From: Clostridia bacterium
Lineage (GTDB): Bacteria; Bacillota; Clostridia; Oscillospirales; Acutalibacteraceae
DNA: 64,000 nt
NCBI GenBank assembly: GCA_017473165.1
Contig: JAFUNA010000002.1
Coordinates: 62,001-126,000, forward strand
Direction of reading: 5' to 3'
Shown here: positions 1,197-64,000 of the stretch, one piece after another
Numbering within the stretch: the first letter of the stretch is position 1
Layout: every line of letters begins with the position of its first letter
Program-made: the position numbers and the translations under genes
The notes under the pieces: generated by a model
The model's input: only the letters and a program-made list of their open reading frames with translations
Told to the model about the DNA's origin: nothing
The model's database searches: none

Positions 1197-1209
1197 AAGG
1201 AGAATTAAA

Positions 1210-2676: not shown

Positions 2677-2682
2677 TTTCTG

Positions 2683-4164: not shown

Positions 4165-4181
4165 ACTAACCTCATAAATAT

Positions 4182-4219
4182 AAATCCCTTATGAACCTTT
4201 GAAGATTCATAAGGGATTT
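4182..4219. terminator. Bidirectional terminator
   Basis: A perfect 14-bp stem (AAATCCCTTATGAA with its complement) encloses a 10-base loop. It has A and T tracts on either side. It lies between the convergent ceramidase-like and NamZ-like genes and can stop both transcripts. Confidence 0.85.
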
Positions 4220-4222
4220 TTA

Positions 4223-5344: not shown

Positions 5345-5391
5345 TTTTCAACCTTCCTTCTGATTTTTTGCTCGGAAAATTTGTCTTTTTT

Positions 5392-5420
5392 ATTTTACTC
5401 ATTTTTACTGTATTTGTAAA
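5392..5420 (-). promoter_or_regulatory. Promoter of namZ-like gene
   Basis: On the minus strand, TTTACA (5415-5420) and TAAAAT (5392-5397) are separated by 17 bp, about 50 bp before the ATG at 5344. Confidence 0.6.
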
Positions 5421-5570
5421 CAAAAATCCGAACTTTTTTGCTTTATTAAAAGAATTATTGATTTACACCTCAAGCGAAAAGCACTTTCCGCATCAATAAT
5501 GAGCTTTTCAGCATTCACAAACGGGATTCAGACCGTAACACTATTTCAAAAAGTTTAAATAAAGATAAAG

Positions 5571-5599
5571 TTGACAGCAAAAAACGACCGTGATATGAT
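5571..5599 (+). promoter_or_regulatory. SigA-type promoter of MFS-GH106 operon
   Basis: TTGACA (5571-5576) and TATGAT (5594-5599) with a 17-bp spacer. It is 38 bp upstream of the TTG start of the transporter gene. Confidence 0.75.
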
Positions 5600-5636
5600 A
5601 AAACTCATTGAACTGTTTTAATGGAGGAAATTAATT

Positions 5637-6818: not shown

Positions 6819-6837
6819 AACAGCAAAGGTGTTAACG

Positions 6838-49633: not shown

Positions 49634-50221
49634 ATGAGAGAGGCATCAATCAAAAGAAAAACCAACGAAACAGATATTGAGCTTTCGCTCTGCCTTGACG
49701 GCACGGGTAAATGCGAAATCGACACAGGCTGCGGATTTCTCAATCATATGCTCGAGCTTTTTGCACGCCACGGCAGAATGGATTTAACCGTTAAATGTGT
49801 CGGCGACACACAGGTTGACTATCACCACACCGTTGAGGACATCGGAATTGTGCTCGGCAAGGCTTTTGCCGAGGCTGTAGGCGACAAAAGAGGAATCACC
49901 CGCTACGGCTCAATGATTCTTCCCATGGACGAAACTCTCATTCTTGCAAGCGTTGATATCAGCGGCAGAGCTTATCTCAACTATGATTTGAGCATTCCCT
50001 GCTCAACAGTCGGCGAAATGGATACCGAGCTTGTTGAGGAATTCTTCATTTCACTTGTACGCAACAGCGATATAACCCTCCACATCAAACAGCTTGAGGG
50101 CAAAAACAGCCACCATATCATTGAAGGTGCATTCAAGGCGGTTGCAAGAGCACTCCGTCAGGCTGTTACCGTTGACGAGGCTCTCGGCGGTGAAATTCCC
50201 TCAACGAAAGGACTTTTATAA
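49634..50221 (+). CDS. hisB: Imidazoleglycerol-phosphate dehydratase
   Basis: This 195-residue manganese enzyme dehydrates imidazoleglycerol phosphate. The metal-binding motifs GFLNHMLELFARHGRMDL, DYHHTVEDIGIVLG and NSHHIIEGAFKAVARALR are intact. It is the monofunctional form, without the HAD-type histidinol-phosphatase domain of E. coli HisB. Its stop overlaps the hisH start (TAATG). Confidence 0.97.
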   Translation: MREASIKRKTNETDIELSLCLDGTGKCEIDTGCGFLNHMLELFARHGRMDLTVKCVGDTQVDYHHTVEDIGIVLGKAFAEAVGDKRGITRYGSMILPMDETLILASVDISGRAYLNYDLSIPCSTVGEMDTELVEEFFISLVRNSDITLHIKQLEGKNSHHIIEGAFKAVARALRQAVTVDEALGGEIPSTKGLL

Positions 50222-50829
50222 TGCTTGCTATAATCGATTACGGCTGCGGCAATCTGTTTTCGCTCTCATCTTCACTCAAAAGCTTGGGAATCGAGTGCAA
50301 AATAACGGGTGACAAAGACGAAATTGCAGCGGCTGACAGAATAATTCTCCCCGGTGTCGGTGCATTCGGCGATGCGGCACAAAAGCTCCGTGACTGCGGC
50401 ATGGACAAGCTTCTCTGCTCTCTTGCGGCGGAAGGCAAGCCCATTCTCGGCATCTGCCTCGGAATGCAGCTGCTTTTTGAAAAAAGCTTTGAATACGGTG
50501 CACACATGGGTCTTGGTCTTATCAAGGGCTATGTCGGTCCTCTTGAAGGACAGATTTCAAAAGATTTGAAAATTCCCCATATGGGCTGGAATAAACTCAA
50601 TCTTGCAAAGGCTGACCCGATTTTCAAATACATTGAGCCCGGTGACTATATGTATTTCGTTCACTCATTCTACGCAAGAAACTGCGTTGAAAACACTCTT
50701 GCGTTTGCTGAATACGGTGTTGCCGTGCCCGCAATCGTAAAGAGCGGCAGTGTTTACGGAATGCAGTTCCACCCCGAAAAAAGCGGTGCAAAGGGTCTTG
50801 CACTTTTAAAAGCATTCTCGGAAATTTAA
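50221..50829 (+). CDS. hisH: Imidazole glycerol phosphate synthase subunit HisH
   Basis: HisH is the glutaminase that supplies ammonia to HisF. The 202-residue class I amidotransferase has IDYGCGNLFSLSSSLKSLG, LPGVGAFGDA, the nucleophile ILGICLGMQLLFE and the His-Glu pair in MQFHPEKSG. It overlaps hisB by one base and precedes hisA. Confidence 0.97.
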   Translation: MLAIIDYGCGNLFSLSSSLKSLGIECKITGDKDEIAAADRIILPGVGAFGDAAQKLRDCGMDKLLCSLAAEGKPILGICLGMQLLFEKSFEYGAHMGLGLIKGYVGPLEGQISKDLKIPHMGWNKLNLAKADPIFKYIEPGDYMYFVHSFYARNCVENTLAFAEYGVAVPAIVKSGSVYGMQFHPEKSGAKGLALLKAFSEI

Positions 50830-50839
50830 GGAGATTATT

Positions 50840-51562
50840 ATGCAGATTTTTCCCGCAACAGATATTCTCGGCGGCAAGGTTGTGCGTTTAACAAAAGGCG
50901 ACTACAATCAGGTTAAGATTTACGCAGACTCCCCCGCCGAAATGGCTCTGGAATTCATGAAAGACGGAGCAACAAATTTACATATGGTTGACCTTGACGG
51001 TGCAAAAGACGGTGCTCCCGTTAACTTTGAGGCAATCCGTGAAGCCGCAAAAATCAAGGGACTTTTTATTGAAGTCGGCGGCGGAATAAGGAATATGCAG
51101 AGAATTGAGGATTATCTCAACCTCGGCGTTAAAAGAGTTATCCTCGGCACTGCTGCTGTCAGAAATTATCCCTTTGTTGAAGAAGCGGTAAAGAAATTCG
51201 GCAATGCGGTTGCTGTCGGCGTTGACGCAAAGGAAGGCTTTGTTGCCGTCAGCGGCTGGCAGGAAACAACAAGCGTTAATTCCGTTGAATTCTGCAAAAA
51301 GCTTCGTGACACAGGCGTTTCAACCGTTATTTATACCGACATTTCAAAAGACGGTATGCTTTCGGGCACAAACCTTGAAATTTATAAAGAGCTTTCCGAA
51401 ATCAAAGGTCTTGACATCGTTGCATCGGGCGGAATCACATTCGCTCACGAAATTAAAACCCTTTCCGAAATGGGCATCTACGGTGCAATAGTCGGAAAAG
51501 CCGTTTACGAAGGAAAATTAAGCCTTAAAGAAGCCCTTGCGGCTGCAGGAGGTGCAAAATGA
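50840..51562 (+). CDS. hisA: ProFAR isomerase HisA
   Basis: This 240-residue (beta/alpha)8-barrel isomerises ProFAR to PRFAR. The N-terminal IFPATDILGGKVVRLTKGD, LHMVDLDGAKDG and IEVGGGIR are diagnostic, with YTDISKDGMLSG and VASGGIT in the second half. It overlaps hisF by 4 bp. GGAGATTATT precedes the ATG. Confidence 0.97.
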   Translation: MQIFPATDILGGKVVRLTKGDYNQVKIYADSPAEMALEFMKDGATNLHMVDLDGAKDGAPVNFEAIREAAKIKGLFIEVGGGIRNMQRIEDYLNLGVKRVILGTAAVRNYPFVEEAVKKFGNAVAVGVDAKEGFVAVSGWQETTSVNSVEFCKKLRDTGVSTVIYTDISKDGMLSGTNLEIYKELSEIKGLDIVASGGITFAHEIKTLSEMGIYGAIVGKAVYEGKLSLKEALAAAGGAK

Positions 51563-52314
51563 TTACAAAAAGAATTATCCCCTGCCTTGATGTGCGTAAC
51601 GGCAGAGTTGTTAAGGGCGTTAACTTTGAAGGAATTCAGGACGTTGCCTCGCCCGTTGAGCTTGCACATTTCTATAATGACAGCGGTGCAGATGAGCTTG
51701 TTTTCTATGATATAACAGCTTCGTTTGAGGGCAGAGCACTTTTCACCGATGCGTTAACGCAGGTTGCAAGCGAGATTTTCATTCCTCTCACCGTCGGCGG
51801 CGGAATCAACACCCTTGAAGATTTTGACAGAGTGCTCAAATGCGGTGCTGACAAGGTTTCGGTGAATTCGGGTGCAATCAAAGACCCCTCTATCATTGAA
51901 AAGGCCGCTAAAAAATACGGTGACCAGTGCGTTGTGCTTTCAATGGACATAAAGCGTGTTGACGGCTCATTCCATATTTTCAGCAAGGGCGGAAGAATCG
52001 ACACGGGCATTGATGCTCTTGAATGGGCAAAAAGAGGTCAGGAAAGCGGTGCAGGCGAGTTGGTTGTAAACAGCATTGACACCGACGGCGTAAAGCAGGG
52101 CTTTGACCTTGAAATGCTTCAGAAAATCAGCGATTTGGTTTCAATTCCCGTTATCGCAAGCGGCGGTGCAGGCAAAAAGGAAGATTTCCTTGAACTTTTC
52201 CGTGCAGACTGTGCGGATGCGGGTCTTGCGGCATCAATATTCCACTTTAAGGAAGTCAACATCTGGGATTTGAAGCATTATCTTAACGACAACAACATAG
52301 AGATGAGGATATAA
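51559..52314 (+). CDS. hisF: Imidazole glycerol phosphate synthase subunit HisF
   Basis: HisF is the cyclase that uses ammonia from HisH to form IGP and AICAR. The 251-residue barrel has [55 protein letters not shown] and [17 protein letters not shown]. It is followed one base later by hisIE. Confidence 0.97.
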
Positions 52315-52315
52315 A

Positions 52316-52951
52316 ATGATTGAACTTAAATATAACAGCGACGGACTTATTCCCGCAATCGTGCAGGATCATTACAGCAAAAAGGTTCTTATGCTTGCAT
52401 ATATGAACGCAGAAAGCCTTGATATTACTATCAAGGAAGGCAAAACCTGTTTCTGGAGCAGAAGCCGTCAGGAGCTTTGGCGTAAGGGCGAAACTTCCGG
52501 CAACACACAGCAGGTCGTTTCAATCCGCACGGACTGCGACAGGGACACACTTCTTATCGACGTTATCAAAAACGGTCCTGCTTGCCACACAGGCAGCGAA
52601 ACCTGTTTCTTTGAGGATATTGTTGCACCCGAAGCCGAAGAATTCTCATATGAAGGTCTTTATAAGATGCTTGTAGGCAGAAAGGTTGAGAAAAAAGAAG
52701 GCTCATACACAACCTATCTTTTTGAGAAGGGAATCGATAAAATTCTCAAGAAAGTCGGCGAAGAATGCACAGAGGTTATCATCGGTGCAAAGGGCGGCGA
52801 CAAGGCTGAAACCGTTTATGAGATTGCCGATTTGCTCTATCACATCACCGTTATGATGATTGAAATGGGCATCAGCCTTGACGAGGTTACAGCCGAGCTT
52901 GCAAAGCGTCACATCGTTGACCATAAAGTAAAACAGGAAAAAATGCAGTAA
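52316..52951 (+). CDS. hisI: Bifunctional PR-AMP cyclohydrolase / PR-ATP pyrophosphatase HisIE
   Basis: This 211-residue fusion does the second and third steps of histidine synthesis. The HisI part (about 1-110) has [30 protein letters not shown] and the zinc cysteines in [11 protein letters not shown] and [10 protein letters not shown]. The HisE part (about 115-211) has [24 protein letters not shown] and [10 protein letters not shown]. It is the last gene of the operon, followed by a strong terminator. Confidence 0.97.
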
Positions 52952-52958
52952 ACATCAG

Positions 52959-52983
52959 CTCCCGAGAAATCGGGAGTTTTTTT
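52959..52983 (+). terminator. Terminator of the his operon
   Basis: A 7-bp GC-rich stem (CTCCCGA/TCGGGAG) with loop GAAA followed by seven T residues. Confidence 0.9.
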
Positions 52984-52984
52984 A

Positions 52985-53013
52985 TTGATATATATAGACT
53001 TATATGGTATAAT
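52985..53013 (+). promoter_or_regulatory. Promoter of Dabb-GH43-GH3 operon
   Basis: TTGATA (52985-52990) and TATAAT (53008-53013) with a 17-bp spacer, 36 bp before the first gene. Confidence 0.75.
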
Positions 53014-53049
53014 TTGAATGTATTTGTAATATTGTAAGGAGAAGATAAC

Positions 53050-53340
53050 ATGATTAAACATATCGTTTGCTTCAAGCTCAAAGACAACTCCCCCGCCGAA
53101 TGCGAAAAAGCAAAGGAAGTTCTGCTTTCAATGCAGGGAAATGTTCCCCAGCTTCGTGACATAAAAGTCGGAATTGATTTTCTTCATTCCGAGCGTTCAT
53201 ATGACATCATTCTCGAGGTTCTTCTTGACGATGAAGCTGCTCTTGAAAGCTATCAGAACGACCCCTATCATTGCTCCGTTGTCAAAACTCATATGCACGC
53301 CGTGCGTGAAGCAAGCGTTGCGGTTGACTATATTGTTTAA
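53050..53340 (+). CDS. Dabb (stress-responsive A/B barrel) domain protein
   Basis: This 96-residue protein is a single dimeric alpha/beta-barrel of the Dabb family. The start MIKHIVCFKLKD and the segment YDIILEVLLDDEAALESYQNDP are typical. The function of bacterial Dabb proteins is mostly unknown; some act in stress or in aromatic and polyketide chemistry. It is the first gene in an operon with GH43-like and GH3 glycosidases, with 11 bp to the next gene. Confidence 0.85.
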   Translation: MIKHIVCFKLKDNSPAECEKAKEVLLSMQGNVPQLRDIKVGIDFLHSERSYDIILEVLLDDEAALESYQNDPYHCSVVKTHMHAVREASVAVDYIV

Positions 53341-53351
53341 GGGGATTTAAT

Positions 53352-54293
53352 ATGCAGTTACTCGAAATAAATAAAGAAAAATATATCGGTCAGGCTGACC
53401 CGTTCATTCTTGAAAGCAACGGAAAATTCTATATCTACACCACGGGCAATGACGGAATTTATGCCTACTCTTCAGATAAACTTCTTGAAGGCTGGAAATT
53501 TGAAGGCAGAGTTTTCACAGTTGAGGGTCACGAATGTTTCTGGGCCCCCTCGGTTATTGAAATTGACGGAACATATTATATGTACTGCTCCTTTGAATTT
53601 TTCGGCGACACTCCCGACAAGGGCGGTCACAGGCAGACGATGCACGTTTCATCAAGCAAAAACCCTCTCGGTCCTTTCGAAAATCCGAAACAGCTTCTTC
53701 ACCCCTTTTCAATTGACTCACACGTTGTGAAAAACGAAAACGGTCTGTTTATTTTCTATTCAACAAACATTTTCGATGTCGAGCGACCCGGCACAATCAT
53801 TGTTGTTGACAGACTTCTCGACCCCGTAACTCCCGAAGGAAAGCCCGTTCCCGTTGTCGTTCCTTCAATTGATGAAGAGATTTTTCAGCGTGACAGATAC
53901 GCAAAAGGAACGCATTGGCACACAATTGAAGGAGCTTTCTATTTCAAAGAGGGCGACTGGCAATATGTAATGTATAGCGGCTCATGCTATGAAAACGAAA
54001 CATATTTCATCGGCTATGCAAGAGCAAAAACCGATGAAACCGACCTCACAAAGATAAAATTCGAAAAATACCCCGATGACAAAACCTATGCTCCCGTATT
54101 GAGAAGCAACGAATGGGAGGAAGGCACGGGTCATCACTCCATGATAAAGCACGGCGACGAATGGTACGCAATTTATCATGCAAGAAATACCGAAGCCGAC
54201 GGTCTTGACGGCGACAGAAGAAACGCAAGAATCTGCCGTCTGATTGTTGACAACGGAACAATCAAAGCAGACAGAAAACAGTTTGAAATCTGA
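53352..54293 (+). CDS. GH43-like glycosidase
   Basis: This 313-residue protein is a five-bladed beta-propeller of the GH43 type, whose members hydrolyse arabinosides, xylosides or galactosides. The expected three acidic residues are in QADPFILESNGKFYIY (base), HPFSIDSHVV (pKa modulator) and THWHTIEGAFYF (acid). Blade motifs WAPSVIEIDGTYYMY and GTGHHSMIKHGDEWYAIYHA support the fold. There is no signal peptide or carbohydrate-binding module. GGGG lies 7 bases before the ATG. The GH3 gene follows 16 bp later, so the two enzymes may act on the same oligosaccharide. Confidence 0.85.
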   Translation: MQLLEINKEKYIGQADPFILESNGKFYIYTTGNDGIYAYSSDKLLEGWKFEGRVFTVEGHECFWAPSVIEIDGTYYMYCSFEFFGDTPDKGGHRQTMHVSSSKNPLGPFENPKQLLHPFSIDSHVVKNENGLFIFYSTNIFDVERPGTIIVVDRLLDPVTPEGKPVPVVVPSIDEEIFQRDRYAKGTHWHTIEGAFYFKEGDWQYVMYSGSCYENETYFIGYARAKTDETDLTKIKFEKYPDDKTYAPVLRSNEWEEGTGHHSMIKHGDEWYAIYHARNTEADGLDGDRRNARICRLIVDNGTIKADRKQFEI

Positions 54294-54309
54294 CAGGCAG
54301 GTGTGAATT

Positions 54310-56730
54310 TTGAATATCAAAAAGACAGTTTTTAAATATGTCGGTAAGGTTGTGAACTATGTAACCTCAACTACCTCGCAAGGTACAGCCGATAAATCCG
54401 AGCCCATTGTCCACAATCCCGACCCCGAGCTCGTCAGACTTTGCCGTCAGGCGGGTGCGGAAGGAATTGTTATGCTCAAAAACAACAACAATGTTCTTCC
54501 CCTTACTCCCGACAGAGTTGTTTCCGTTTTCGGCAGAGTGCAGAACGATTATTTCTGTGTGGGCTATGGCTCGGGCGGTGACGTCAAAACACCCTACAAA
54601 GTAACTCTCATGCAGGGCATCCGAAACAGCGGCAAAATCGCCGTTAACGAGCTGCTTGCAGCAACATATGTCAAATGGGGTGAAGCAAATCCCGTTGATG
54701 ACGGCTTTTGGGGTAACTGGCCCATGTGCTATGACGAAATGCCCGTTGACCTTTCGATGGCTCGCACCGCCGCTTCTCAATCCGACACGGCAATTGTTGT
54801 TATCGGCAGAGCTGCGGGCGAAGACAGAGAAAACAAGCTTGAAAAGGGCAGCTACTATCTGACAGACACCGAAAAACAGCTTCTCGATTCCGTTACGGCG
54901 GCATTTGATAAGGTTATTGTTCTTCTCAACTGCGGCGGAATTATGGATATGTCGGCAATTGACAGCTACGGCGATAAAATTTCCGCAATTCTCTATGTCT
55001 GGCAGTCGGGCATGGAAAGCGGGAACTCCGTTGCAGATGTACTCTGCGGCGATGTTTCACCCTGCGGCAAGCTGCCCGATACAATTGCAAAGGAATACAA
55101 AGATTATCCCGGCAGCTCCGATTTCGGCGACAGAAAATCAAACTGCTACACCGAAGATATCTACGTTGGCTACAGAGGTCTTGAAACCTTCGGAAAAGAA
55201 AAAGTGCTCTATCCCTTCGGCTTCGGTCTGGGTTATTCCGAATTCGCAATTGAAAATATTGATTGCTCCTGCAAGCATGACTTTATAACCGTTTCGGCTG
55301 ATGTTAAAAATATCGGCAATTATTCGGGCAAAGAGGTTTTGCAGCTCTATTTTGAAGCTCCGTGCGGAAAAATGGGCAAGCCTGCAAGACAGCTGATTTC
55401 ATTCAGAAAAACAAAGCTTCTCAAGCCCGATGAATGTGAAACTCTTTCAATGACCTTTAACGCCGCTGAAATGGCATCCTATGACGATGTCGGCGAATTT
55501 GCCTATATTCTCGAAAAGGGACTTTATAAAATTTATCTCGGCACAGACGTACGCTCCGCTCAAATCTGCTGCGAATATGAGCAGGAAACAAACGAGATTG
55601 TCAAACGCTGTAAGCAGGTATGTGCTGTTGCGGAGGAATCTGCGTTCAAGCGTATGAAATACACAAACGGCGGTCTGACATATGAGAATGTCCCCACCGT
55701 TAAATATGACCTTAAAGAAATTATACTTAACAATCTTCCTCAAAGCATTCCGCAGACGGGCGACATGGGCTATAAGCTTGCAGATGTCAAAAGCGGCAAG
55801 ATTTCGATGACGCAGTTTGTTGCACAGCTTGACAACAAAGAGCTTGAAGCAATCAGCAGAGGCGACTACATAATGAACAGTCCTCTCGGTGCACAGGGCA
55901 ACGCAGGCACATTCGGCGGCGTGCTCGAATCCATGAGAGCAAAGGGAATTCCCGCAGTTACAACAACCGATGGACCTTCGGGCATCCGGTTAAGAGCAGG
56001 TGCATCCCTCCTGCCCTCGGCAACGGGACTCGCAAGCACATGGAATCCCGAGCTTTGCGAAGCTCTTTACGAAAAGGTCGGCGAAGAAATGAACAAGCTC
56101 GGCTCACACGTTCTTCTTGCTCCGGGAATGAACATTCACAGGAATCCCCTTTGCGGCAGAAACTTTGAATATTTTTCCGAAGACCCTCTGCTCACGGGCG
56201 AAATGGCGGCTGCGGTTGTCAGAGGAATTCAGAAAACGGGCTGCTCGGCTTGTCCCAAGCATTTCGCCTGCAACAACCAGGAAACAAACCGAATTCACAA
56301 CGATTCAAGAGTTTCGGAAAGAGCATTGCGTGAAATCTATCTCAAGGGCTTTGAAATTGTTGTAAAAGAAGCAAGGCCTTGGAACATTATGACCTCATAT
56401 AACAAAATCAACGGCGTCTGGGGTCACTATAACTATGAGCTCTGCATGAGAATTCTCCGTGGAGAATGGGGCTATGAGGGCAGCATCATGACTGACTGGT
56501 GGATGCGTTCATCAAAATCTCCCGAATTTCCCGAGCTCAAAGACCAGGCTTACCGTGTGCGTGCAGGCGTTAACGTGCTCATGCCCGGCGGCAGAAGAGT
56601 CGGACCGAAAAAGCCCGACGGCACGCTTCTCAAAACTCTCGGTCAGGAAAACGGCATAACCCTCGGCGAGCTCCAGCAGAATGCGGCTTATATTCTCAAT
56701 TTTGTTATGAATAGTGCGGCAATGAAATAA
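54310..56730 (+). CDS. GH3 beta-glycosidase with permuted domain order
   Basis: This 806-residue enzyme starts at TTG after AGGTG. The usual GH3 order is reversed: residues about 35-310 are the alpha/beta-sandwich domain (AGAEGIVMLKNNNNVLPL, AAGEDRENK), about 310-430 a fibronectin III-like domain (SADVKNIGNYSGKEVLQLYF), and about 510-806 the TIM barrel. The barrel has TTDGPSGIR, PGMNIHRNPLCGRNFEYFSE, CPKHFACNNQE and the nucleophile in SIMTDWWM. Similar permuted GH3 enzymes are known from rumen bacteria such as Ruminococcus albus. It is probably a cytosolic exo-beta-glucosidase or beta-xylosidase. Confidence 0.9.
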   Translation: MNIKKTVFKYVGKVVNYVTSTTSQGTADKSEPIVHNPDPELVRLCRQAGAEGIVMLKNNNNVLPLTPDRVVSVFGRVQNDYFCVGYGSGGDVKTPYKVTLMQGIRNSGKIAVNELLAATYVKWGEANPVDDGFWGNWPMCYDEMPVDLSMARTAASQSDTAIVVIGRAAGEDRENKLEKGSYYLTDTEKQLLDSVTAAFDKVIVLLNCGGIMDMSAIDSYGDKISAILYVWQSGMESGNSVADVLCGDVSPCGKLPDTIAKEYKDYPGSSDFGDRKSNCYTEDIYVGYRGLETFGKEKVLYPFGFGLGYSEFAIENIDCSCKHDFITVSADVKNIGNYSGKEVLQLYFEAPCGKMGKPARQLISFRKTKLLKPDECETLSMTFNAAEMASYDDVGEFAYILEKGLYKIYLGTDVRSAQICCEYEQETNEIVKRCKQVCAVAEESAFKRMKYTNGGLTYENVPTVKYDLKEIILNNLPQSIPQTGDMGYKLADVKSGKISMTQFVAQLDNKELEAISRGDYIMNSPLGAQGNAGTFGGVLESMRAKGIPAVTTTDGPSGIRLRAGASLLPSATGLASTWNPELCEALYEKVGEEMNKLGSHVLLAPGMNIHRNPLCGRNFEYFSEDPLLTGEMAAAVVRGIQKTGCSACPKHFACNNQETNRIHNDSRVSERALREIYLKGFEIVVKEARPWNIMTSYNKINGVWGHYNYELCMRILRGEWGYEGSIMTDWWMRSSKSPEFPELKDQAYRVRAGVNVLMPGGRRVGPKKPDGTLLKTLGQENGITLGELQQNAAYILNFVMNSAAMK

Positions 56731-56735
56731 AAAGC

Positions 56736-56773
56736 AAAGATGATTTGTTCGGTGTTCCGTTCAAATCATCTTT
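56736..56773 (+). terminator. Terminator of GH3 operon
   Basis: A 12-bp perfect stem (AAAGATGATTTG with its complement) followed by T residues. Confidence 0.85.
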
Positions 56774-56814
56774 TTTATAACACTTCATAAAAATCCGAAT
56801 ATAATGTAAATAAA

Positions 56815-56883
56815 GGACAGGCAATTTTGAAATTTTTTGCTCCCCGATTTCAAAATCACGATTAATTTGCCTGTTATCTGTCC
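56815..56883. repeat. Nested inverted repeat upstream of mazF
   Basis: Three nested inverted arms are present: GGACAG/CTGTCC (outer), ACAGGCAA (56817-56824) with TTGCCTGT (56867-56874), and a perfect 10-bp inner pair ATTTTGAAAT (56824-56833) with ATTTCAAAAT (56847-56856). A TATAAT at 56800-56805 just upstream lacks a clear -35 box. The element could be a leader hairpin or an operator for mazF. Confidence 0.55.
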
Positions 56884-56923
56884 AAAATATTGATGTAACA
56901 ATTCGGTTATAGGAGTGATTATA

Positions 56924-57277
56924 TTGACCGTTAAACGGGGAGAAATTTATTATGCCGACTTAAGCCCTGTTATCGGCTCGGAACAGGGCGGCACAAGACC
57001 TGTTCTTATTGTTCAGAACGACGTAGGGAACAAATTCAGCCCTACGGTTATTGCGGCAGCAATAACAAGCCAGAGATTCAAAACCAGTCTTCCCACACAT
57101 ATAAGAGTTAATGCGGACGGCTGCGGACTTGCAAAGGATTCAATCGTTTTGCTTGAACAGGTACGTACACTTGATAAGAAAAGACTTCGCGAAAAAATGG
57201 GAATTCTTGACGAAACAGACATGATAAGAGTTGACAGGGCATTATCTGTCAGCTTGGGAATAGGTATTGCAGAATAG
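56924..57277 (+). CDS. mazF: MazF/PemK-family mRNA interferase toxin
   Basis: This 117-residue toxin cuts mRNA at short sequence motifs. The TTG at 56924 ([13 protein letters not shown]) is chosen because AGGAG lies 8 bases before it; the upstream GTG at 56915 would overlap the Shine-Dalgarno sequence. The MazF fold is shown by [36 protein letters not shown] and the C-terminal [14 protein letters not shown]. Length matches B. subtilis NdoA. No MazE antitoxin gene is found on either side, so it is either a solitary toxin or controlled by an antitoxin elsewhere. It marks the edge of the A+T-rich island. Confidence 0.9.
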
Positions 57278-57281
57278 AAAG

Positions 57282-57307
57282 AAAACCACTCCGTTGGGGG
57301 TGGTTTT
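57282..57307 (+). terminator. Terminator of mazF
   Basis: An 11-bp stem with one G-T pair (AAAACCACTCC/GGGGTGGTTTT), loop GTTG, T-rich tail. Confidence 0.8.
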
Positions 57308-57438
57308 TGCTTGTCGAAAAGTCATTATCAATATGAAAAGTTTCTTGACAGAATCGCCTTCCCTTAATGCGTGGGGTTGCTAAGGACAGTTCATAAAACA
57401 GTCATTTAGATACCGTGCATTGCAGAAGGAAAAGAAAT

Positions 57439-57468
57439 AACCAAGAGAGAGTAAAATCTTTCTTGGTT
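57439..57468 (+). terminator. Terminator-like hairpin without a recognised gene
   Basis: AACCAAGA/TCTTGGTT (8 bp) followed by TTCTTTTTT. The 130 bp between the mazF terminator and this one contain no open frame of note. Confidence 0.55.
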
Positions 57469-57552
57469 TTCTTTTTTATTAATATTTGCACATTCGACAA
57501 ATCATTCTTTAATTTGTACAATGTAAGTATAAAATTTTAAGGAGGACTTTTT

Positions 57553-57918
57553 ATGTCAAACCAAAACAAATTCCAATATCGTCAGGTTGGTGATTATTTG
57601 ATTCCGAACCTCGTTTTACCACCCGAAGAAACAACCATAACACTTGGCAAATGGGGAATGATGCACAAGGATTATCTTCTCAAACACAAGAAAGTATTAT
57701 TTTCAACACTGCTTACCCAAGGTAAACTCTATCAGTATTGTGCCGAGGTCGAAAAGCAGGCACAGGATATGTATGATAAGTTTTTGGAGCAAATGAAAGT
57801 TGCAGTTGGCGTGACAGAGGTTTTGAAAGAACAAGACCAGATGGAGTGGGTGCGGAGAATGAGGAATATTGAAGCAAGGACAAGGGAGATTGTGTGTGAA
57901 GAAGTAATATATATCTAA
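57553..57918 (+). CDS. tnpV: TnpV, transposon-encoded protein
   Basis: This 121-residue protein matches the TnpV family encoded by conjugative and mobilisable transposons of Firmicutes. The pattern is VGDYLIPNLVLPPEE, GKWGMMHKDYLLKHKK, LLTQGKLYQYCAEVEKQA and VTEVLKEQDQMEWVRRMRNIEARTREIV. Its biochemical role is unknown. GGAGG is 8 bases before the ATG. Being isolated from a transposase or integrase, it is probably a remnant of, or cargo from, a mobile element and marks the following DNA as accessory. Confidence 0.85.
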   Translation: MSNQNKFQYRQVGDYLIPNLVLPPEETTITLGKWGMMHKDYLLKHKKVLFSTLLTQGKLYQYCAEVEKQAQDMYDKFLEQMKVAVGVTEVLKEQDQMEWVRRMRNIEARTREIVCEEVIYI

Positions 57919-57939
57919 TATTATGACGCTTTTATAAGA

Positions 57940-57973
57940 AAAAGAGAAGCTTTTCAAGATGAGCTTCTCTTTT
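57940..57973. terminator. Bidirectional terminator between tnpV and MBL operon
   Basis: A 12-bp perfect stem (AAAAGAGAAGCT with its complement) with A and T tracts on either side, between convergent genes. Confidence 0.85.
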
Positions 57974-57979
57974 CGAGTT

Positions 57980-59323
57980 TTATTTACCGTTTATACAAAA
58001 GATTTTCGTTATAGTACCTTTTTTAGGATTGTATACTCGGCATCGCAACAAATGTCTTCCCACATACGATAGGTCTCTTTTAAAAGAAAAAATACCATCG
58101 TTTTCTTCTTGGCCTTTGTAATATATTTCTTGATGCGAACTATCAACGCCTTTTCCACCGTTTGATACTTCCCACCAAGTATTTATCCTGTCTATAGGTT
58201 CGAAAAAGCCTAATTTGGAAGATAATGAAAATTTAAGTGTACCACCAACATCTAATGTGCTTCCGCTTTTAACTGGTATGGTTGTATTGTTGTGAGTGTA
58301 AGTACAATTAATTTGCATATCATAAGTAATTGAAGCCGTTCTAGTTTCGCAGAATCTAGAAGGAACAACAGTGTAATTTCCTTCGCTATCTATATATCCA
58401 ACAATGTGTCCACAATTTTTGGTGGTATATACTTGCTGATTCTCACAATTTTCTAGATATATTTTAAATGCTTCTTTGTTGGGATGATGCTGAGTTTTAT
58501 AATCACCGCAAGAAATCAATACGACATCAGGATTAATGTAATCTATAGATTCAATGTATGTTGTATCGGGACTTTTAACTATGTCTATGCTATCATTTTG
58601 CTCTTCGTCGGTAAAAAATGAGCGTGAACCATGATGGCTTGCAATTAAAATATTACTTTCAACATCGCTTCCATAAGTTGGTATTATTTTTTCTTTCCAA
58701 CATTTCCAATCAGAGTCGCCTGTTAGCAACATAGATGTATTAGCATACTCGATTTTTAAAACAATAGAATTTGTATGTTGTATTTTGGCATAGGCCTCAA
58801 AAATTTTAACGCAGTTATCATAACCTTCTTGATACTCTTCTTTGCTCGACAAACAATAAATATTTGCACCGCCAATATTAGCTATTGGCAAATCAGTAGG
58901 TACAAGCTCTTTTAAATTATCTGCATCTTCATCTCTGAGTTTTCTTCTTAAATACATATAGTATTTATATGTATCACTTTGTGTGGATGCACCCGTTTGA
59001 CCGGAATCCCAAATTGATTTAATTTTAAATTTTTCATTTACTTTTTTTAAACCTCTGCAATGGTCATCATCACGGTGAGAATTGACAAAAAAATGAATAA
59101 TTTTTTCTTCTAAATCTGTATCCTCGTTGTAATTTAAAGGAATGTTTTTATCTAAATAATTTAAAATATCATCAGCATTTTCTTCGGTAACATTACAATC
59201 AAATAACATAACCTTATTATCGGGAAATATGATTAAAATCATTAGACCTTCCCCAACATCCAATATATGAAATCTAAAAGCATTTTCATCACAATAATAC
59301 TTTAAAGGTGAACTTAAAGACAT
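57980..59323 (-). CDS. MBL-fold hydrolase with C-terminal AGS-C-like sensor domain
   Basis: The ATG at 59323 (MSLSSPLKYY) is chosen because AAGGAG is 7 bases ahead; it gives 447 residues. Residues about 14-325 are a ComEC/Rec2-type metallo-beta-lactamase fold with metal motifs HRDDDH (83-88), TGDSD (201-205) and SHHGS (229-233). Residues about 355-445 show a beta-rich module with WWEVSNGG (383-390), a following YKGQ, FKRDL and YVGRHLLRCRVY (420-431), which resembles the AGS-C domain (Adenylyl/Guanylyl and SMODS C-terminal sensor) of CBASS nucleotidyltransferases. It may sense or hydrolyse a nucleotide or nucleic acid. It is the last gene of the operon. The AGS-C assignment is by eye and needs a profile search. 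Confidence 0.75.
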   Translation of the reverse strand: MSLSSPLKYYCDENAFRFHILDVGEGLMILIIFPDNKVMLFDCNVTEENADDILNYLDKNIPLNYNEDTDLEEKIIHFFVNSHRDDDHCRGLKKVNEKFKIKSIWDSGQTGASTQSDTYKYYMYLRRKLRDEDADNLKELVPTDLPIANIGGANIYCLSSKEEYQEGYDNCVKIFEAYAKIQHTNSIVLKIEYANTSMLLTGDSDWKCWKEKIIPTYGSDVESNILIASHHGSRSFFTDEEQNDSIDIVKSPDTTYIESIDYINPDVVLISCGDYKTQHHPNKEAFKIYLENCENQQVYTTKNCGHIVGYIDSEGNYTVVPSRFCETRTASITYDMQINCTYTHNNTTIPVKSGSTLDVGGTLKFSLSSKLGFFEPIDRINTWWEVSNGGKGVDSSHQEIYYKGQEENDGIFSFKRDLSYVGRHLLRCRVYNPKKGTITKIFCINGK

Positions 59324-59361
59324 AATATCACTCCTTGTTTTTATCATTCTATTTTTAAGTC

Positions 59362-59868
59362 TTAAGTGTCCTTGCCACTCTCCATTAGTTTAACTATTTT
59401 TGATGCGTGTTTTCTACAAGAAAGATAAAAAACTAAAGATATCATTATGCAAGAAACAAACATTGGGCAAAACTTGTTAAACGCTGCAATAACAGCTAGA
59501 ACCACAAACAATGCAATACTAGTTCTCGAAAGAGCAAATTCTCTTGAAAGAGTACTCATAATAGGATATTCTTTCTTTTTTTCATTAAATAAAACATAAT
59601 CATCATTAAAAGGGATTAATTTTATCTTTTTTAATACTGGTTCAATGACAACAGAACCGACTCTGTTTATTATCAGTCCGATTTCATAAGCTACCGCTAA
59701 TAAGCAGATTACAAATATAATTTCGGGCCCAGTTTTTAGATTTGCATAGAATTCACCATTCAATAGCTGAATTGCTTTTTCCGGAAAAACAAACAGTAAA
59801 CCTCCTAAAAACACAAATCCTGTTAAAAGCATATTAACTATGTTATAAAACGGCACTTTAATTTCCAT
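59362..59868 (-). CDS. Four-helix membrane protein of MBL operon
   Basis: The 168-residue form begins at the ATG at 59868 (MEIKVPFYNIVNML), which shares a base with the stop of the upstream MBL gene (TAATG) and has AAAGGAG ahead, so it is translationally coupled. Hydrophobic helices are at about 8-27, 46-66 and 105-140 (two helices back to back). A loop of about 40 residues with charged residues lies between helices 2 and 3 and should be cytoplasmic. No family was recognised. As a small membrane protein tied to three putative nucleases or nucleotide hydrolases, it could be an effector that disrupts the membrane or an anchor; both are inference. Confidence 0.75.
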   Translation of the reverse strand: MEIKVPFYNIVNMLLTGFVFLGGLLFVFPEKAIQLLNGEFYANLKTGPEIIFVICLLAVAYEIGLIINRVGSVVIEPVLKKIKLIPFNDDYVLFNEKKKEYPIMSTLSREFALSRTSIALFVVLAVIAAFNKFCPMFVSCIMISLVFYLSCRKHASKIVKLMESGKDT

Positions 59869-60710
59869 TAATAATTCTCCTTTCCCCAATCTACATAGCA
59901 ATAATCTTCGCCAATATCAAATGTAATTGTACCTTCATTTCGAGTGGTCAACACATACCTGTCTTGTCCCTTGAGAGTAACTCCTCTGCCTTTATACAGA
60001 CGAGTTGTATCATTTTGAGTGCCGTACTCAATTGATTTATCTGATACAACGGTAAGATACGGATTAACACAGTCAAAGAATTCTTTACAAAATTCTCCTG
60101 TTCTGCCATGATGCGGCGCTAATAAAACGGTTGCGTTTTTTACTTTTGATTTTATGTTTTCATAATTTTCATTCATCATATTTTGTAATATACTTTTTGG
60201 ATTATCTCCCGTCAAAACAAATTTATATCCAAAAGCATTTATGACTATAATGTTTGAAAAAGTATTTAAGTCTTGTTTTGTTGTCCATGAAGATTTTGGT
60301 GTTATAAATTCAAACGAGACTCCACCGTTAGATAAAGATTCTGTAGGCAACTCATTAACATTAACCGGTTGATTATAGGATGCATTCATACTGTTAGCAA
60401 CTTCTGCTATTTTTTTATGTATATAAGTATTTTGAGTTGGTATAATGTCAAAAGCCCCTCGATCTCTATGTAAAACTCTGGGTTTTAACATATCAACCAT
60501 ATTAGGTAAATCATAAATGTGATCTTCGTGTGGATGTGTAATTATTAGTTCGTCTATAGTTCCGTAACTATACATAAAGTATTTTCTTTTAATATGCTCA
60601 ATTATGCTTTTATTAGTTTTGCTTCCGACATCGATTAATATATGTTGATTATTGGGTGTAATAATATGACAACAGCTACCGTGTTCTACATCGTAAAAAA
60701 TTATTTTCAT
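59868..60710 (-). CDS. ComEC-type MBL-fold hydrolase, compact
   Basis: This 280-residue protein is a stand-alone metallo-beta-lactamase domain like the C-terminal part of ComEC/Rec2, with no membrane segment. Metal-binding motifs are complete: THPHEDH (58-64), TGD (167-169) and PHHG (199-202), and it begins KIIFYDVEHGSCCHI in the way typical of the group. The ComEC-type MBL domain is known or proposed to act as a nuclease; related MBL phosphodiesterases hydrolyse cyclic nucleotides. It lies between the larger MBL gene (72 bp upstream) and the membrane protein (overlapping). No signal peptide. Confidence 0.85.
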   Translation of the reverse strand: MKIIFYDVEHGSCCHIITPNNQHILIDVGSKTNKSIIEHIKRKYFMYSYGTIDELIITHPHEDHIYDLPNMVDMLKPRVLHRDRGAFDIIPTQNTYIHKKIAEVANSMNASYNQPVNVNELPTESLSNGGVSFEFITPKSSWTTKQDLNTFSNIIVINAFGYKFVLTGDNPKSILQNMMNENYENIKSKVKNATVLLAPHHGRTGEFCKEFFDCVNPYLTVVSDKSIEYGTQNDTTRLYKGRGVTLKGQDRYVLTTRNEGTITFDIGEDYCYVDWGKENY

Positions 60711-60782
60711 TTTTCTTACTCCTTTTAATTATTTTGATTTATGTTTATCATAAGTAGTAAAAACATCAATGAATGCAACAGT

Positions 60783-61973
60783 TTAACTATATATTCGAAA
60801 ATAAACTGCGCTATTGGCTTCTTCTGTAACTACAAGAGGATTGGTATCATTCAATAATAAATTCTTAATCACAAAAGAGTGCGGATGACCATACATATTC
60901 TTGGTTCCAGCGGAAATAACATAGTACGAATTATACACAGATATGTTAGTATTGTAATTGTTTTTTGAACCATGATGCGGTATTTGAATGCAGCCTACAA
61001 AATCTTCTATACTTTTATTTGAAAAACCTTTATTAAGTCTATTTTCATATGACTCTATTAAAGTGAAAAATTTATTATCATCGCTCATATCATAATCGCC
61101 GGTGTAAAGACAACCTGACATTTTTAAACCTCCGAAATTATAGCAACCTTTACAGTAACATCTTGTGTATTTTTGACCAACATATTTTTGATAGCTTTTT
61201 CCGAGTATGTCTCCGGAATATAAAGTCATAGAGTTAGTGTTAAAATGTTTTGTACCTTTTAACACATTCAAATATATTCTTTTAATATCTTTGATAGATT
61301 CTTTTGTTATATTGTTTGGTAATTCTTTATAATCGAATCCTTTTAAATTTGCATATTCACTCAAAGCTTGCTTTAAATAGATCATATTATTTCTTTCTTC
61401 ATAATTAAAAGGAATAAACGCCCAATCAGAAAGCATTTTATTGCGAGAATAACGTGCTATTATGGAACTGACATCCCTGCCTGAACGAATATATTCTTCT
61501 CTTTCTCCATAATCAATTTCCTTGTTTGCAAATTGCTCAAACTGATTATCAAGATAGTATGGTTCTATTTCATATATTTCAGTTGACTCAGATTTATGAA
61601 CCAAAGCTTTCTTGGGGTTATTGATAAAGCTATTGGTAAAATCACTATTTTTAGAATCATTGAGAATATTGTTAAGATATAAAACTATCTTATTTTCATC
61701 AGTAACCATAGGCAAAAATATTATTTTGACATCGCAGTATTCTAATAAGTGTTCTAATCCACTAATATGGTCATAATGAAAATGAGATATAAATACCGCG
61801 TGAATGGTTTCGCCTCTTTTAAAAGTATTTTCAATTTGTTTTTTTATCAGCGTTTTACTTTGCGAACCACAATCATAAACAATATTTATGATTTCTTTAG
61901 TTTGTTTATCTAAAAATTGTTCGCAATAAAAAGCGCCTTGTCCCACCGGTATAAAGCTTCTAATCATTTTCAT
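60783..61973 (-). CDS. MBL-fold hydrolase with cysteine cluster
   Basis: This 396-residue protein is the first gene of the operon; AAAGGAGGT is 7 bases ahead of the ATG. It starts MIRSFIPVGQGAF-like, then has the metal motif SHFHYDH (63-69), TGDYD (291-295), PHHGS (332-336) and GHPH (362-365). An insertion of about 200 residues between the first two motifs is larger than in its neighbours. A cysteine group CYCKGC plus Cys288 (residues 272-288) just before the TGD motif could hold zinc. No membrane segment or signal peptide. Probably a nuclease or phosphodiesterase; substrate unknown. Confidence 0.8.
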   Translation of the reverse strand: MKMIRSFIPVGQGAFYCEQFLDKQTKEIINIVYDCGSQSKTLIKKQIENTFKRGETIHAVFISHFHYDHISGLEHLLEYCDVKIIFLPMVTDENKIVLYLNNILNDSKNSDFTNSFINNPKKALVHKSESTEIYEIEPYYLDNQFEQFANKEIDYGEREEYIRSGRDVSSIIARYSRNKMLSDWAFIPFNYEERNNMIYLKQALSEYANLKGFDYKELPNNITKESIKDIKRIYLNVLKGTKHFNTNSMTLYSGDILGKSYQKYVGQKYTRCYCKGCYNFGGLKMSGCLYTGDYDMSDDNKFFTLIESYENRLNKGFSNKSIEDFVGCIQIPHHGSKNNYNTNISVYNSYYVISAGTKNMYGHPHSFVIKNLLLNDTNPLVVTEEANSAVYFRIYS

Positions 61974-62088
61974 ACAGTAAACCTCCTTTTAATGAGTGTA
62001 CATCTGTTTTTTACCAAAAAGAGAAATCAATGCTTATAATTATACTAATATACTATATTAATATTTAAATGTATCTTCAATCCGATTT

Positions 62089-62121
62089 ACAAAAACGCTT
62101 GATTTTTCGACAAAAACGCTT
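62089..62121. repeat. Two direct repeats spaced two helical turns apart
   Basis: ACAAAAACGCTT occurs at 62089-62100 and again at 62110-62121, 21 bp start to start, each followed by a similar T-rich tract. They lie between the two divergent transcription units. Confidence 0.7.
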
Positions 62122-62193
62122 ACTTTTTGACTGAAAAATAGAGTTTTAATGTACCATACTTGATTTATTTACACCTGATAATACTGTAAAATA

Positions 62194-62222
62194 TTGACTT
62201 TTCACGCTGTCGGTGCTATACT
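62194..62222 (+). promoter_or_regulatory. SigA-type promoter of HNH-DUF4037 unit
   Basis: TTGACT (62194-62199) and TATACT (62217-62222) with a 17-bp spacer. Confidence 0.8.
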
Positions 62223-62253
62223 GATAAAAATTACCGAAAGGCAGGTGGACAAA

Positions 62254-62310
62254 ATGATGAAGAGTCTTAGCTTTATGATTAGGAGTGCCGTTTTGTCCGT
62301 TTGCGATTGA
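62254..62310 (+). CDS. 18-residue leader peptide
   Basis: The ORF encodes MMKSLSFMIRSAVLSVCD. AGGTGG at 62243-62248 gives a suitable ribosome binding site for either ATG. It starts about 25 bases into the predicted transcript. An 8-bp complementary pair GGACAAAA (62247-62254) and TTTTGTCC (62291-62298) would fold the first part of the ORF into a hairpin that hides its start. With the hairpin downstream it has the layout of an attenuation leader. No known leader peptide was recognised. Confidence 0.5.
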   Translation: MMKSLSFMIRSAVLSVCD

Positions 62311-62333
62311 TGTAAATATCTATCTAAACTTAC

Positions 62334-62363
62334 AGGCATCTCCGTCAGATTATGGAGATGCCT
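62334..62363 (+). terminator. Attenuator-like hairpin before HNH gene
   Basis: A perfect 10-bp stem (AGGCATCTCC with its complement) and 10-base loop followed by TATTTATTATG. It lies between the leader ORF and the HNH gene, 28 bp before its start. The T tract is broken, so termination may be partial. Confidence 0.6.
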
Positions 62364-62390
62364 TATTTATTATGTGACGAGGTGTAATAA

Positions 62391-63170
62391 ATGGCGAATA
62401 GCAGTAAAAATGTATTTAGTATAGATGGTGACACTATAACCATTTCACATTCCGATGGAGATTTTATTGCAACAGCCTCGTTAAGAGAAGATTATGAAGA
62501 AGAAATACAATCTGTTACATGGAGCAAAAATGGAAATTATGTTTATAGTCAAAAGTTAGGAGTATATTTACATATCTATATAATGAAGAAATGGTATGGT
62601 GAAGATGTTTATGACCAAATGAAAACATCAGGCTATATTGTCGACCATATGGATAATAATGGTTATAATTGTTGCATAGATAATTTGTGTTTTTTGACTT
62701 ACGACGAAAATATAGCTAAAGGACACACAGTTGACAAGAAGAGCAAAAATAAAACTCATATTGCTTTATCTTTGTTTAAAGACTTTTACACACAGAACAT
62801 ACAAATGACAATTGTTTTTAATTATCCGGCTATCGCTAAAATTAGCAGTATAAATTCACCTGCGGTAATTGAACTCGTTTATTTGCTATATGATTGTGAA
62901 TATGAAATAGTCCTTAATGATGCGAGAGCGATTTTATATGATTATGAATATAACCATACTTTCGATCCTGAAAAGCTACACGATTCAGATTATCACATTG
63001 AAGGTGCATACGGCATTCCTTGGCCTATAGAACGTTATAACAGATATATTGAAGGTGGACATGGACACGCTGTTTGCTTCTTCGTGAAGAAATCGCCCAT
63101 TAAAGGATGGAAAGTTGAAGAACAGCGGAAGTTTTTTTACTTAAGAGGAACACCAAAACCGAAAGAATGA
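62391..63170 (+). CDS. HNH endonuclease-like protein
   Basis: This 259-residue protein contains an HNH-type motif at about residues 58-100: YLHIYIMKKW, then IVDHMDNN and NCCIDNL, as in HNH nucleases of phages and mobile introns (usually HR...DHIDGN...NN...NL). A His at 61, His 86 and Asn 93/98 are the expected key positions. The C-terminal 150 residues are of unknown function and contain the motif HIEGAYGIPWPIERYNRY. GACGAGGTG is ahead of the ATG. The gene may cut DNA as a mobile-element or defence nuclease; activity is inferred from the motif only. Confidence 0.7.
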   Translation: MANSSKNVFSIDGDTITISHSDGDFIATASLREDYEEEIQSVTWSKNGNYVYSQKLGVYLHIYIMKKWYGEDVYDQMKTSGYIVDHMDNNGYNCCIDNLCFLTYDENIAKGHTVDKKSKNKTHIALSLFKDFYTQNIQMTIVFNYPAIAKISSINSPAVIELVYLLYDCEYEIVLNDARAILYDYEYNHTFDPEKLHDSDYHIEGAYGIPWPIERYNRYIEGGHGHAVCFFVKKSPIKGWKVEEQRKFFYLRGTPKPKE

Positions 63171-63198
63171 TAAAGATTAAAACATTGAGGGAAAAGCA

Positions 63199-64000
63199 AT
63201 GAATAAATTTATAAAAGGAATGGACTTATGTGAAGGCTTTTTCAATGAATATGCAAAACCAATCATTGAAGAAAGCTTCCCTGATTTAAAATACTCAGCC
63301 GGGTTAATTGGCTACGGCTCTGATGTGTTGGGTTATGATGATGCTGTTTCTACTGACCATATGTGGGGACCTCGTTTTTATTTGTTTTTGAGTGAAACTG
63401 ATATTTCAATGAAGAACGATATCATAAATGCATTATATGAAAATCTACCCTATACATACAAAGGTTATAGTGTTAATTTCACCGAACCTGACCCGAATGA
63501 TTGCGGTGTTCAGCATCCTGAATTTATAACCGAAGGTAAGGTTAATCCATTGGTGTTTATACACACTTTTGATGAGTACCTAAATGAACAACTCGGCACA
63601 GCAGATTTAGATAATATTTCACCTTTTCAATGGCTTGCTTTTTCGGAGCACAGACTATTATCGTTGGTATCAGGCAAGTTCTTTGATGATGGTCTTAACT
63701 GTTCAGATAAAATCGAAAAAATTAAGTACTATCCCAAAGAAGTAAAATTATATATGATTGCTTCTAATTGGGAAATTATTGCGTCAGAACAGGCATTTGT
63801 AAAGCGTTGCGGTGAATGTGGCGATGAAATAGGCTCACAGCTTGTCTGTGCAAGAATTGCAGAACGCCTGATGAGATTATGTTTCTTGTATAAAGATACC
63901 TATGCCCCTTATAGTAAGTGGTTCGGAACGGCTTTCAACCATCTTGATATTGATGAAAGTATAAAACAAACAATTCAGACCGCACTTTCAGCAAACAGTT
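63199..64000 (+). CDS. DUF4037 domain protein (3' partial)
   Basis: The frame starts at ATG 63199 after GAGGG and is open to the right edge (at least 267 residues). It begins MNKFIKGMDLCEGFFNEY and has AGLIGYGSDVLGYDDAVSTDH and MWGPRFYLFLSE, which is the nucleotidyltransferase-like N-terminus of DUF4037 proteins. Other seen segments are SPFQWLAFSEHRLLSLVSGKFFDD and MIASNWEIIASEQAFVKRCGECGDEIGSQL. DUF4037 proteins are related to aminoglycoside and kanamycin nucleotidyltransferases, but the function is not established. It follows the HNH gene by 28 bp and is probably co-transcribed. Confidence 0.8.
   Translation, partial: MNKFIKGMDLCEGFFNEYAKPIIEESFPDLKYSAGLIGYGSDVLGYDDAVSTDHMWGPRFYLFLSETDISMKNDIINALYENLPYTYKGYSVNFTEPDPNDCGVQHPEFITEGKVNPLVFIHTFDEYLNEQLGTADLDNISPFQWLAFSEHRLLSLVSGKFFDDGLNCSDKIEKIKYYPKEVKLYMIASNWEIIASEQAFVKRCGECGDEIGSQLVCARIAERLMRLCFLYKDTYAPYSKWFGTAFNHLDIDESIKQTIQTALSANS

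Follow-up and report, generated by a model that had tools for sequence, protein, structure and literature searches.

The PDC series of the PADLOC database, which goes back to Payne et al. (bioRxiv 2024.01.29.577857, as cited or described in PMC12988326, PMC13092281 and PMC13356809), consists of phage-defence candidates that were found via their location in or beside known defence systems. The AGS_C domain is otherwise found on CD-NTases (cGAS/DncV-like nucleotidyltransferases), e.g., DncV (PMC7288161). The subject of the present analysis is an operon on the minus strand of a 64,000-nucleotide stretch of DNA from a Clostridia bacterium (hereinafter, the window; assembly GCA_017473165.1, contig JAFUNA010000002.1, positions 62,001 to 126,000) that encodes three distinct hydrolases of the metallo-beta-lactamase (MBL) fold, denoted here MBL396, MBL280 and MBL447 by their lengths in amino acids (aa), and a small membrane protein. 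The pair of MBL280 and the membrane protein matches the already catalogued candidate PDC-M48, and the apparently new element is MBL447, an MBL with a C-terminal AGS_C domain, as a conserved third member of the set; the PDC-M48 match and the AGS_C domain are both features that the original prediction for this locus had missed. We know of no mechanism for pairs of an MBL and a membrane protein, and found no papers on AGS-C with metallo-beta-lactamase, on PDC-M48 or on 6A-MBL in a search whose coverage left out most subscription titles and all bioRxiv preprints.

MBL280 matches the PADLOC model PDC-M48B (PDLC04675) with 145.2 bits over residues 2-267, and the membrane protein matches three PDC-M48A models, the best of which is PDLC04670 (54.4 bits, residues 4-163); the PADLOC scores are given as bits, without PADLOC's own cut-offs for comparison. 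The original claim that no named system has this composition does not hold for these two genes. The start codon of the membrane protein overlaps the stop codon of MBL280 as TAATG, in agreement with the predicted coupling, but a hydropathy scan of the 168-aa product (179 aa from an alternative TTG start) reveals three clear membrane segments rather than the four helices that had been proposed. Matches to PDC-M48A were detected in 5 of the 295 genomes of the window's order, and matches to the membrane protein itself in 4 of the 300 genomes of the window's family, one of them (G819) partial, inside a 654-aa frame; four other listed genomes of the genus and the plasmids gave none. Among the relatives of the membrane protein in five other genomes, one is adjoined by an MBL (L152), one has an MBL one open reading frame (ORF) away (L012), one lies in a locus that ends at a contig edge (L013), and two match weakly and have no MBL gene next to them (L014, L015). 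The L152 version (L152:7435-8944, genome G855 of the same family) is a two-gene pair of a 320-aa MBL and a membrane protein; it lies near TnpV-, ParA- and integrase-like genes, recognised by reading.

The AGS_C domain of MBL447 was identified with Pfam PF18134 (29.8 bits against a cut-off of 26.7, E 6.5e-7). In addition, the C-terminal 130 residues of MBL447 and of its homologue in locus L137, described below, were combined into a two-row profile and compared with the C-terminal parts of four AGS_C proteins taken from the PF18134 search of the phylum; this profile-profile match had a probability of 91.7% and was aligned on the W-V-N-G and G-H motifs, whereas a control comparison that used the MBL part of both proteins gave 0.1%. 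By itself, the L137 homologue reaches 24.4 bits with PF18134, slightly under the cut-off, and also matches a PADLOC oligonucleotide-cyclase model across the AGS_C stretch (20.6 bits). Matches to PF18134 were found in 4 of 299 phylum genomes, a tally that under-counts because the window's own AGS_C was missed.

The MBL part of MBL447 scores 54.1 bits against the 6A-MBL enzyme model NF058524 (cut-off 220; 59 bits for the L137 homologue), and the PADLOC matches of the MBL-AGS_C gene are weak (37 bits in the window and 47 in L137, with PDC-M48B as the best model in both). Since the MBL447 profile yields 84-100 bits on one MBL each in the plasmid loci L139-L141 but no more than 36 bits, or no match, on the other MBLs tried, its own L137 member excepted, MBL447 looks like a 6A-type MBL that lacks the E1-E2-JAB partner and has AGS_C added. 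E1/ThiF genes are annotated in plasmid loci L139-L141, L144, L146 and L147, and cap2_3, the E1-E2-JAB model, matches in L140 and L141 with 140 and 158 bits, under its cut-off of 320. No cap2_3 partner was found among the seven window proteins scanned or recognised in the ORFs up to the contig end, and the same seven proteins gave no CD-NTase or pyrimidine cyclase match. MBL447 alone hit eight stretches in the genome contigs, none of which was confirmed, and its AGS_C part had no match in plasmids.

A search of 348 phylum genomes with the AGS_C part of MBL447 returned a single genome besides that of the window, namely G308, which belongs to another class because it is labelled as sharing the phylum only. 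In this genome, locus L137 has the gene order hsdM - hsdS - FRG-domain gene - 282-aa membrane protein - hsdR - MBL297 - 162-aa membrane protein - MBL443-AGS_C, where hsdM is incomplete (cut) and was identified by reading. The order compact MBL, membrane protein, MBL-AGS_C is thus the same in the window and in L137; the membrane proteins (L137:7950-8438) are 46% identical, and MBL443-AGS_C (L137:8497-9828) is 52% identical to MBL447. MBL297 matches PDC-M48B with 446 bits. Its identity to MBL280 is only about 23%, which indicates that the compact MBL diverges more rapidly than the proteins accompanying it. Elsewhere, one of the 10 genomes of G308's order matched at E 1e-20, and this was G308 itself; one other of the 295 genomes of the window's order matched MBL447 at E of 1e-15 or below, in the MBL part only. 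The three-gene core is conserved but rare. The 1958-3725 interval of L137, between hsdS and hsdR, holds the FRG-domain gene (PADLOC PDC-S15, 180 bits) and the 282-aa membrane protein, which had no match in the three libraries scanned.

L137 lacks MBL396, and the full four-gene set was found nowhere else in the genomes and loci searched. The idea that the genes are kept together elsewhere is borne out for three of them, but not for MBL396, which has no steady partner. Their placement near known defence genes is likewise seen in L137, where the triad lies behind hsdM-hsdS-hsdR, in L105 and in part of the MBL396 relatives, but not around the window operon itself, beside which no known defence system was noticed when the ORFs of positions 50000-64000 and onward to the contig end were read and some of them scanned.

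MBL396 is recognised by the signature PVGQGxFYxE / VYDCG / SHFxxDH / YSG / YTGD / PHHGS / YGHP and weakly matches LmuA (45.5 bits). Scanning a collection of 84,980 species confirmed 117 loci with relatives, of which the best 80 were kept and joined by one viral contig (L054), the single match of the A1 profile in viral contigs; searches of the viral contigs with MBL280, MBL396 and MBL447 singly and with the A4 alignment gave no confirmed match. No neighbour family occurs within six genes in more than 14 of these 81 loci, and MBL396 was accordingly rejected as the defining gene. A type I restriction gene lies at most four genes away in 13 loci and further out in 5 (541 and 469 ORFs compared, respectively; BLAST to reference Hsd proteins), a local comparison within the opened loci, without a genome-wide background rate; the first count used Hsd references partly drawn from the same loci, and the repeat without self-matches again gave 13. 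Pfam confirms HsdS in L105, L120 and L127, together with HsdR in the first two of these loci and HsdM in the third. In L068, L079 and L120 (Psychrobacter), the MBL396-type gene lies between hsdS and hsdR; a YgjP-like peptidase gene follows hsdR in these three loci and also in L069. In three of the 81 loci (L071, L105 and L127), another ComEC-type MBL gene was found within eight genes; four further genes with MBL motifs are of other kinds by reading. The set in L105 (Bacteroidales) runs HsdS - MBL357 - 177-aa PDC-M48A protein (126 bits) - MBL396-type - AAA ATPase - ORF - HsdR - YgjP-like peptidase. Because it joins a PDC-M48-like pair in L105 and patatin/M48B-type sets in L071 and L127, MBL396 is a module able to join PDC-M48-type sets and is not required by them. 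Within the phylum, its profile matched 10 of 398 genomes, and the nine other loci that were opened (L043-L051) showed no PDC-M48 pair alongside. In L127 (Flavobacterium degerlachei, positions 694-6748), a 346-aa MBL gene followed by protease-like, 177-aa and SMC-like ATPase genes (by reading) is found a short distance upstream of HsdS and the MBL396-type gene and resembles another MBL-based defence set.

The partner of the compact MBL was also followed in 12 plasmid loci (6 of the 95 records from the MBL280 search and 6 of the 38 from a search with the L127 MBL), picked among the upper entries of each list rather than at random. In nine of these, the next gene encodes a protein of 120-260 aa with two to four hydrophobic segments, and the last gene of the 6A-like loci L140 and L141 likewise encodes a small membrane protein. 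At the partner position in L071, L127 and L139, there is instead a patatin-like phospholipase with two hydrophobic segments (Pfam patatin, 60 bits in L071 and 62 in L127, where the adjoining PDC-M48B-type MBLs score 148 and 155 bits). In L139 (positions 3128-8937, a Hymenobacter volaticus plasmid), the pair of patatin and MBL is divergent from a set of a 6A-like MBL, an E2-like and a ThiF gene, so that both partner kinds are united in one locus. The membrane partners at L021:5272-5982 and L025:6979-7674 match PDC-M48A and also Csx27 of type VI-B CRISPR, the latter with 28 and 24 bits, scores too weak to carry weight.

Table 1. Features of the MBL operon and its immediate surroundings in the window
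Feature	Position	Strand	Description
MBL396	60783..61973	-	First gene; ComEC-like MBL, widespread family without a steady partner
MBL280	59868..60710	-	Compact ComEC-type MBL; PADLOC PDC-M48B (PDLC04675, 145 bits)
Membrane protein, 168 aa	59362..59868	-	PADLOC PDC-M48A (PDLC04670, 54 bits)
MBL447	57980..59323	-	MBL closest to 6A-MBL type, with C-terminal AGS_C
AGS_C domain of MBL447	58019..58336	-	Residues 338-443 of the 455-aa frame; Pfam PF18134
Probable terminator, operon/tnpV interval	57940..57973		12-bp exact inverted repeat with A/T tracts
TnpV transposon protein	57553..57918	+	Context, outside the system; 139 bits
HNH_3-domain gene	62391..63170	+	Divergent, context; 26.3 bits against a cut-off of 24.8

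The gene calls agree with the original description of four co-directional, closely spaced genes between 57980 and 61973 and of three MBLs with complete metal-binding motifs, accompanied by TnpV and an HNH-like gene (Table 1). The genes follow one another in the order MBL396, MBL280, membrane protein, MBL447, with gaps of 72 bp between the first two and 38 bp between the last two. The latter gap shrinks to 14 bp if the third MBL starts at 59347 (455 aa); the ATG at 59323 is the better start because it is preceded by the Shine-Dalgarno sequence AAGGAGT, and the L137 homologue starts near the matching position. The motifs read SHFHYDH / YTGD / PHHG in MBL396, THPHEDH / LTGD / PHHG in MBL280 and SHRDDDH / LTGD / SHHG in MBL447; as HxxxDH, GD and HHG are present in all three, none looks dead. 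With Pfam Lactamase_B (cut-off 22.7 bits), MBL396 scores 38.8, MBL280 30.4 and MBL447, slightly under the cut-off, 21.5. The exact inverted repeat downstream of the operon (arms 57940-57951 and 57962-57973, found by eye) looks like its terminator.

The GC content of the operon is 0.29-0.34 (L003 5001-9000, window 58000-61999), compared with 0.42-0.47 in the surroundings (L003 1-4000, window 53000-56999), and the contig end, about 7.6 kb beyond the window, carries a Mob_Pre relaxase (133 bits) and a ParB-like gene (by reading). Given the drop in GC, the flanking TnpV and these genes, the operon is probably imported, horizontally acquired DNA. A housekeeping origin was rejected: the other ComEC-type MBL of this genome is a separate gene on C21, between radical-SAM genes (by reading), and is 29-31% identical over part of the length. 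Downstream of the HNH gene (window 63199 onward; L003:10200-13553), there are DUF4037 and APH-family phosphotransferase genes (Pfam; 53 bits for the latter) and GNAT-like and LytTR-like genes (by reading); neither these nor the HNH gene has a shown link to the operon.

Taken together, these features suggest that the operon is probably a defence system of some sort. Beyond that, we favour, tentatively and with somewhat less than even confidence, a horizontally acquired anti-phage operon, made of the three-gene core and a fourth MBL, that would mount a membrane-executed abortive response under the control of the MBLs. The membrane protein would act as the executor and damage the membrane of its own cell, under the control of the coupled MBL280, which may hydrolyse a ligand that is a nucleotide or a nucleic acid; AGS_C would detect an infection cue and switch MBL447, so that phage infection would release the executor and the infected cell would stop growing or die. 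The L137 triad behind hsdM-hsdS-hsdR, the PDC-M48 match, the L105 set, and the low GC content with TnpV support this reading. The frequent pairing of MBLs with membrane proteins and the replacement of the latter by a patatin-like phospholipase, which would fit an exchangeable membrane-attacking effector, suggest that the second member of the pair acts on the cell membrane, and AGS_C, placed at the end of the protein as in antiviral cyclases, is most likely the sensor of the infection cue; it is these three observations that favour a membrane-executed abortive response. Several points weigh against it. The AGS_C-MBL triad was found in one other genome alone, no type I restriction gene was seen beside the window operon, the membrane partner is absent in three of the 12 plasmid loci (L024, L145 and L146), MBL357 of L105 scores marginally higher with LmuA than with PDC-M48B (118.7 against 116.7 bits), and the operon contains no nucleotide synthase to make a signal. 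Moreover, the general view of ComEC-type MBLs is that they are nucleases, and this would also be consistent with a direct attack on the DNA of the phage.

Such an attack is the essence of a somewhat unlikely alternative whereby the membrane protein tethers the compact MBL to the inner membrane in the manner of a split ComEC, the MBLs cut the entering phage DNA, and AGS_C, as a sensor of DNA or a ligand, licenses the cutting. The nearest solved relatives of all three MBLs are ComEC MBL domains, and MBL280 and MBL447 match ComEC_Rec2 in the MBL part with about 43 bits each (range 25.7-43.5, cut-off 190; MBL396, with 25.7 bits, matches no better than it does RNase Z, 25.3); the TAATG overlap of MBL280 and the membrane protein and the linkage to DNA restriction in relatives point the same way. 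However, patatin-like phospholipases in place of the membrane protein in L071, L127 and L139 are not expected of an anchor, and the ComEC channel and OB domain are absent. The hydrolases might, alternatively, be phosphodiesterases akin to Apyc1 that damp the signals of cyclic-oligonucleotide-based antiphage signalling systems (CBASS) or the pyrimidine cyclase system for antiphage resistance (Pycsar), of the host or of rival systems, a counter-defence function that appears highly doubtful: AGS_C is linked to nucleotide cyclases, and Apyc1 is a weak match of the A1 profile (E 9e-4), but the match of this profile to ComEC is far better (E 3.5e-8), and the combination of three MBLs, a membrane protein and nearby restriction genes is unlike phage anti-CBASS genes. 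Furthermore, among 50,697 phage records, none match the L137 membrane protein, and the 10 that match MBL447 do so only within residues 22-356.

A role outside defence, in the maintenance of a mobile element, in a toxin-antitoxin-like module or in an unrelated cluster of hydrolases, is in our judgement distinctly unlikely. The adjoining TnpV, the setting of the L152 pair and the many MBL396 relatives without a recurrent partner are compatible with it, but the fact that type I restriction operons precede (L137) or enclose (L105) the related genes and the listing of the pair by PADLOC as a defence candidate argue against it. The most novel interpretation, which we regard as rather improbable, is antiviral signalling without a cyclase, whereby the AGS_C of CBASS cyclases has moved onto a hydrolase and infection is read out through the destruction of a nucleotide ligand instead of its synthesis; the coupled MBL and the membrane executor would take part, and MBL396-like hydrolases would be plugged in as modules. 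An MBL with the sensor domain of antiviral cyclases offers direct access to the question of what is sensed by AGS_C, and the MBL-AGS_C gene could reveal whether hydrolases can act as the switch, as cyclases do in CBASS. That a patatin-like phospholipase replaces the membrane protein in related loci leads to a testable prediction on the executor.

Comparison with known systems places the operon close to several of them. It shares the MBL domain type with ComEC/Rec2, but its MBLs stand alone, without the competence channel or OB domain. MBLs of a similar type occur in defence loci of Avs1a, LmuA and reverse transcriptases, but the matches are weak (11-46 bits; the best for Avs1a is 29.2 bits, with MBL396, against a curated cut-off of 420), and the four window genes include no Avs1 partner and no STAND, SMC or reverse-transcriptase gene. 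The C-terminal AGS_C is shared with the cyclases of CBASS and Pycsar, but the enzyme part of MBL447 has the MBL hydrolase fold, not that of a nucleotidyltransferase or cyclase, and there is no cyclase in the operon. The MBL type nearest to MBL447 is that of the 6A-MBL anti-phage system (NCBIfam NF058524 with cap2_3, NF058523), from which the operon differs in the score far under 220 bits, the absence of an E1-E2-JAB gene and the addition of AGS_C. With PDC-M48, the window shares the compact MBL coupled to a small membrane protein; unlike L137 and L105, it has no restriction gene in sight, and both the window and L137 add to this pair the MBL-AGS_C gene, to which the window, alone of these two, adds MBL396.

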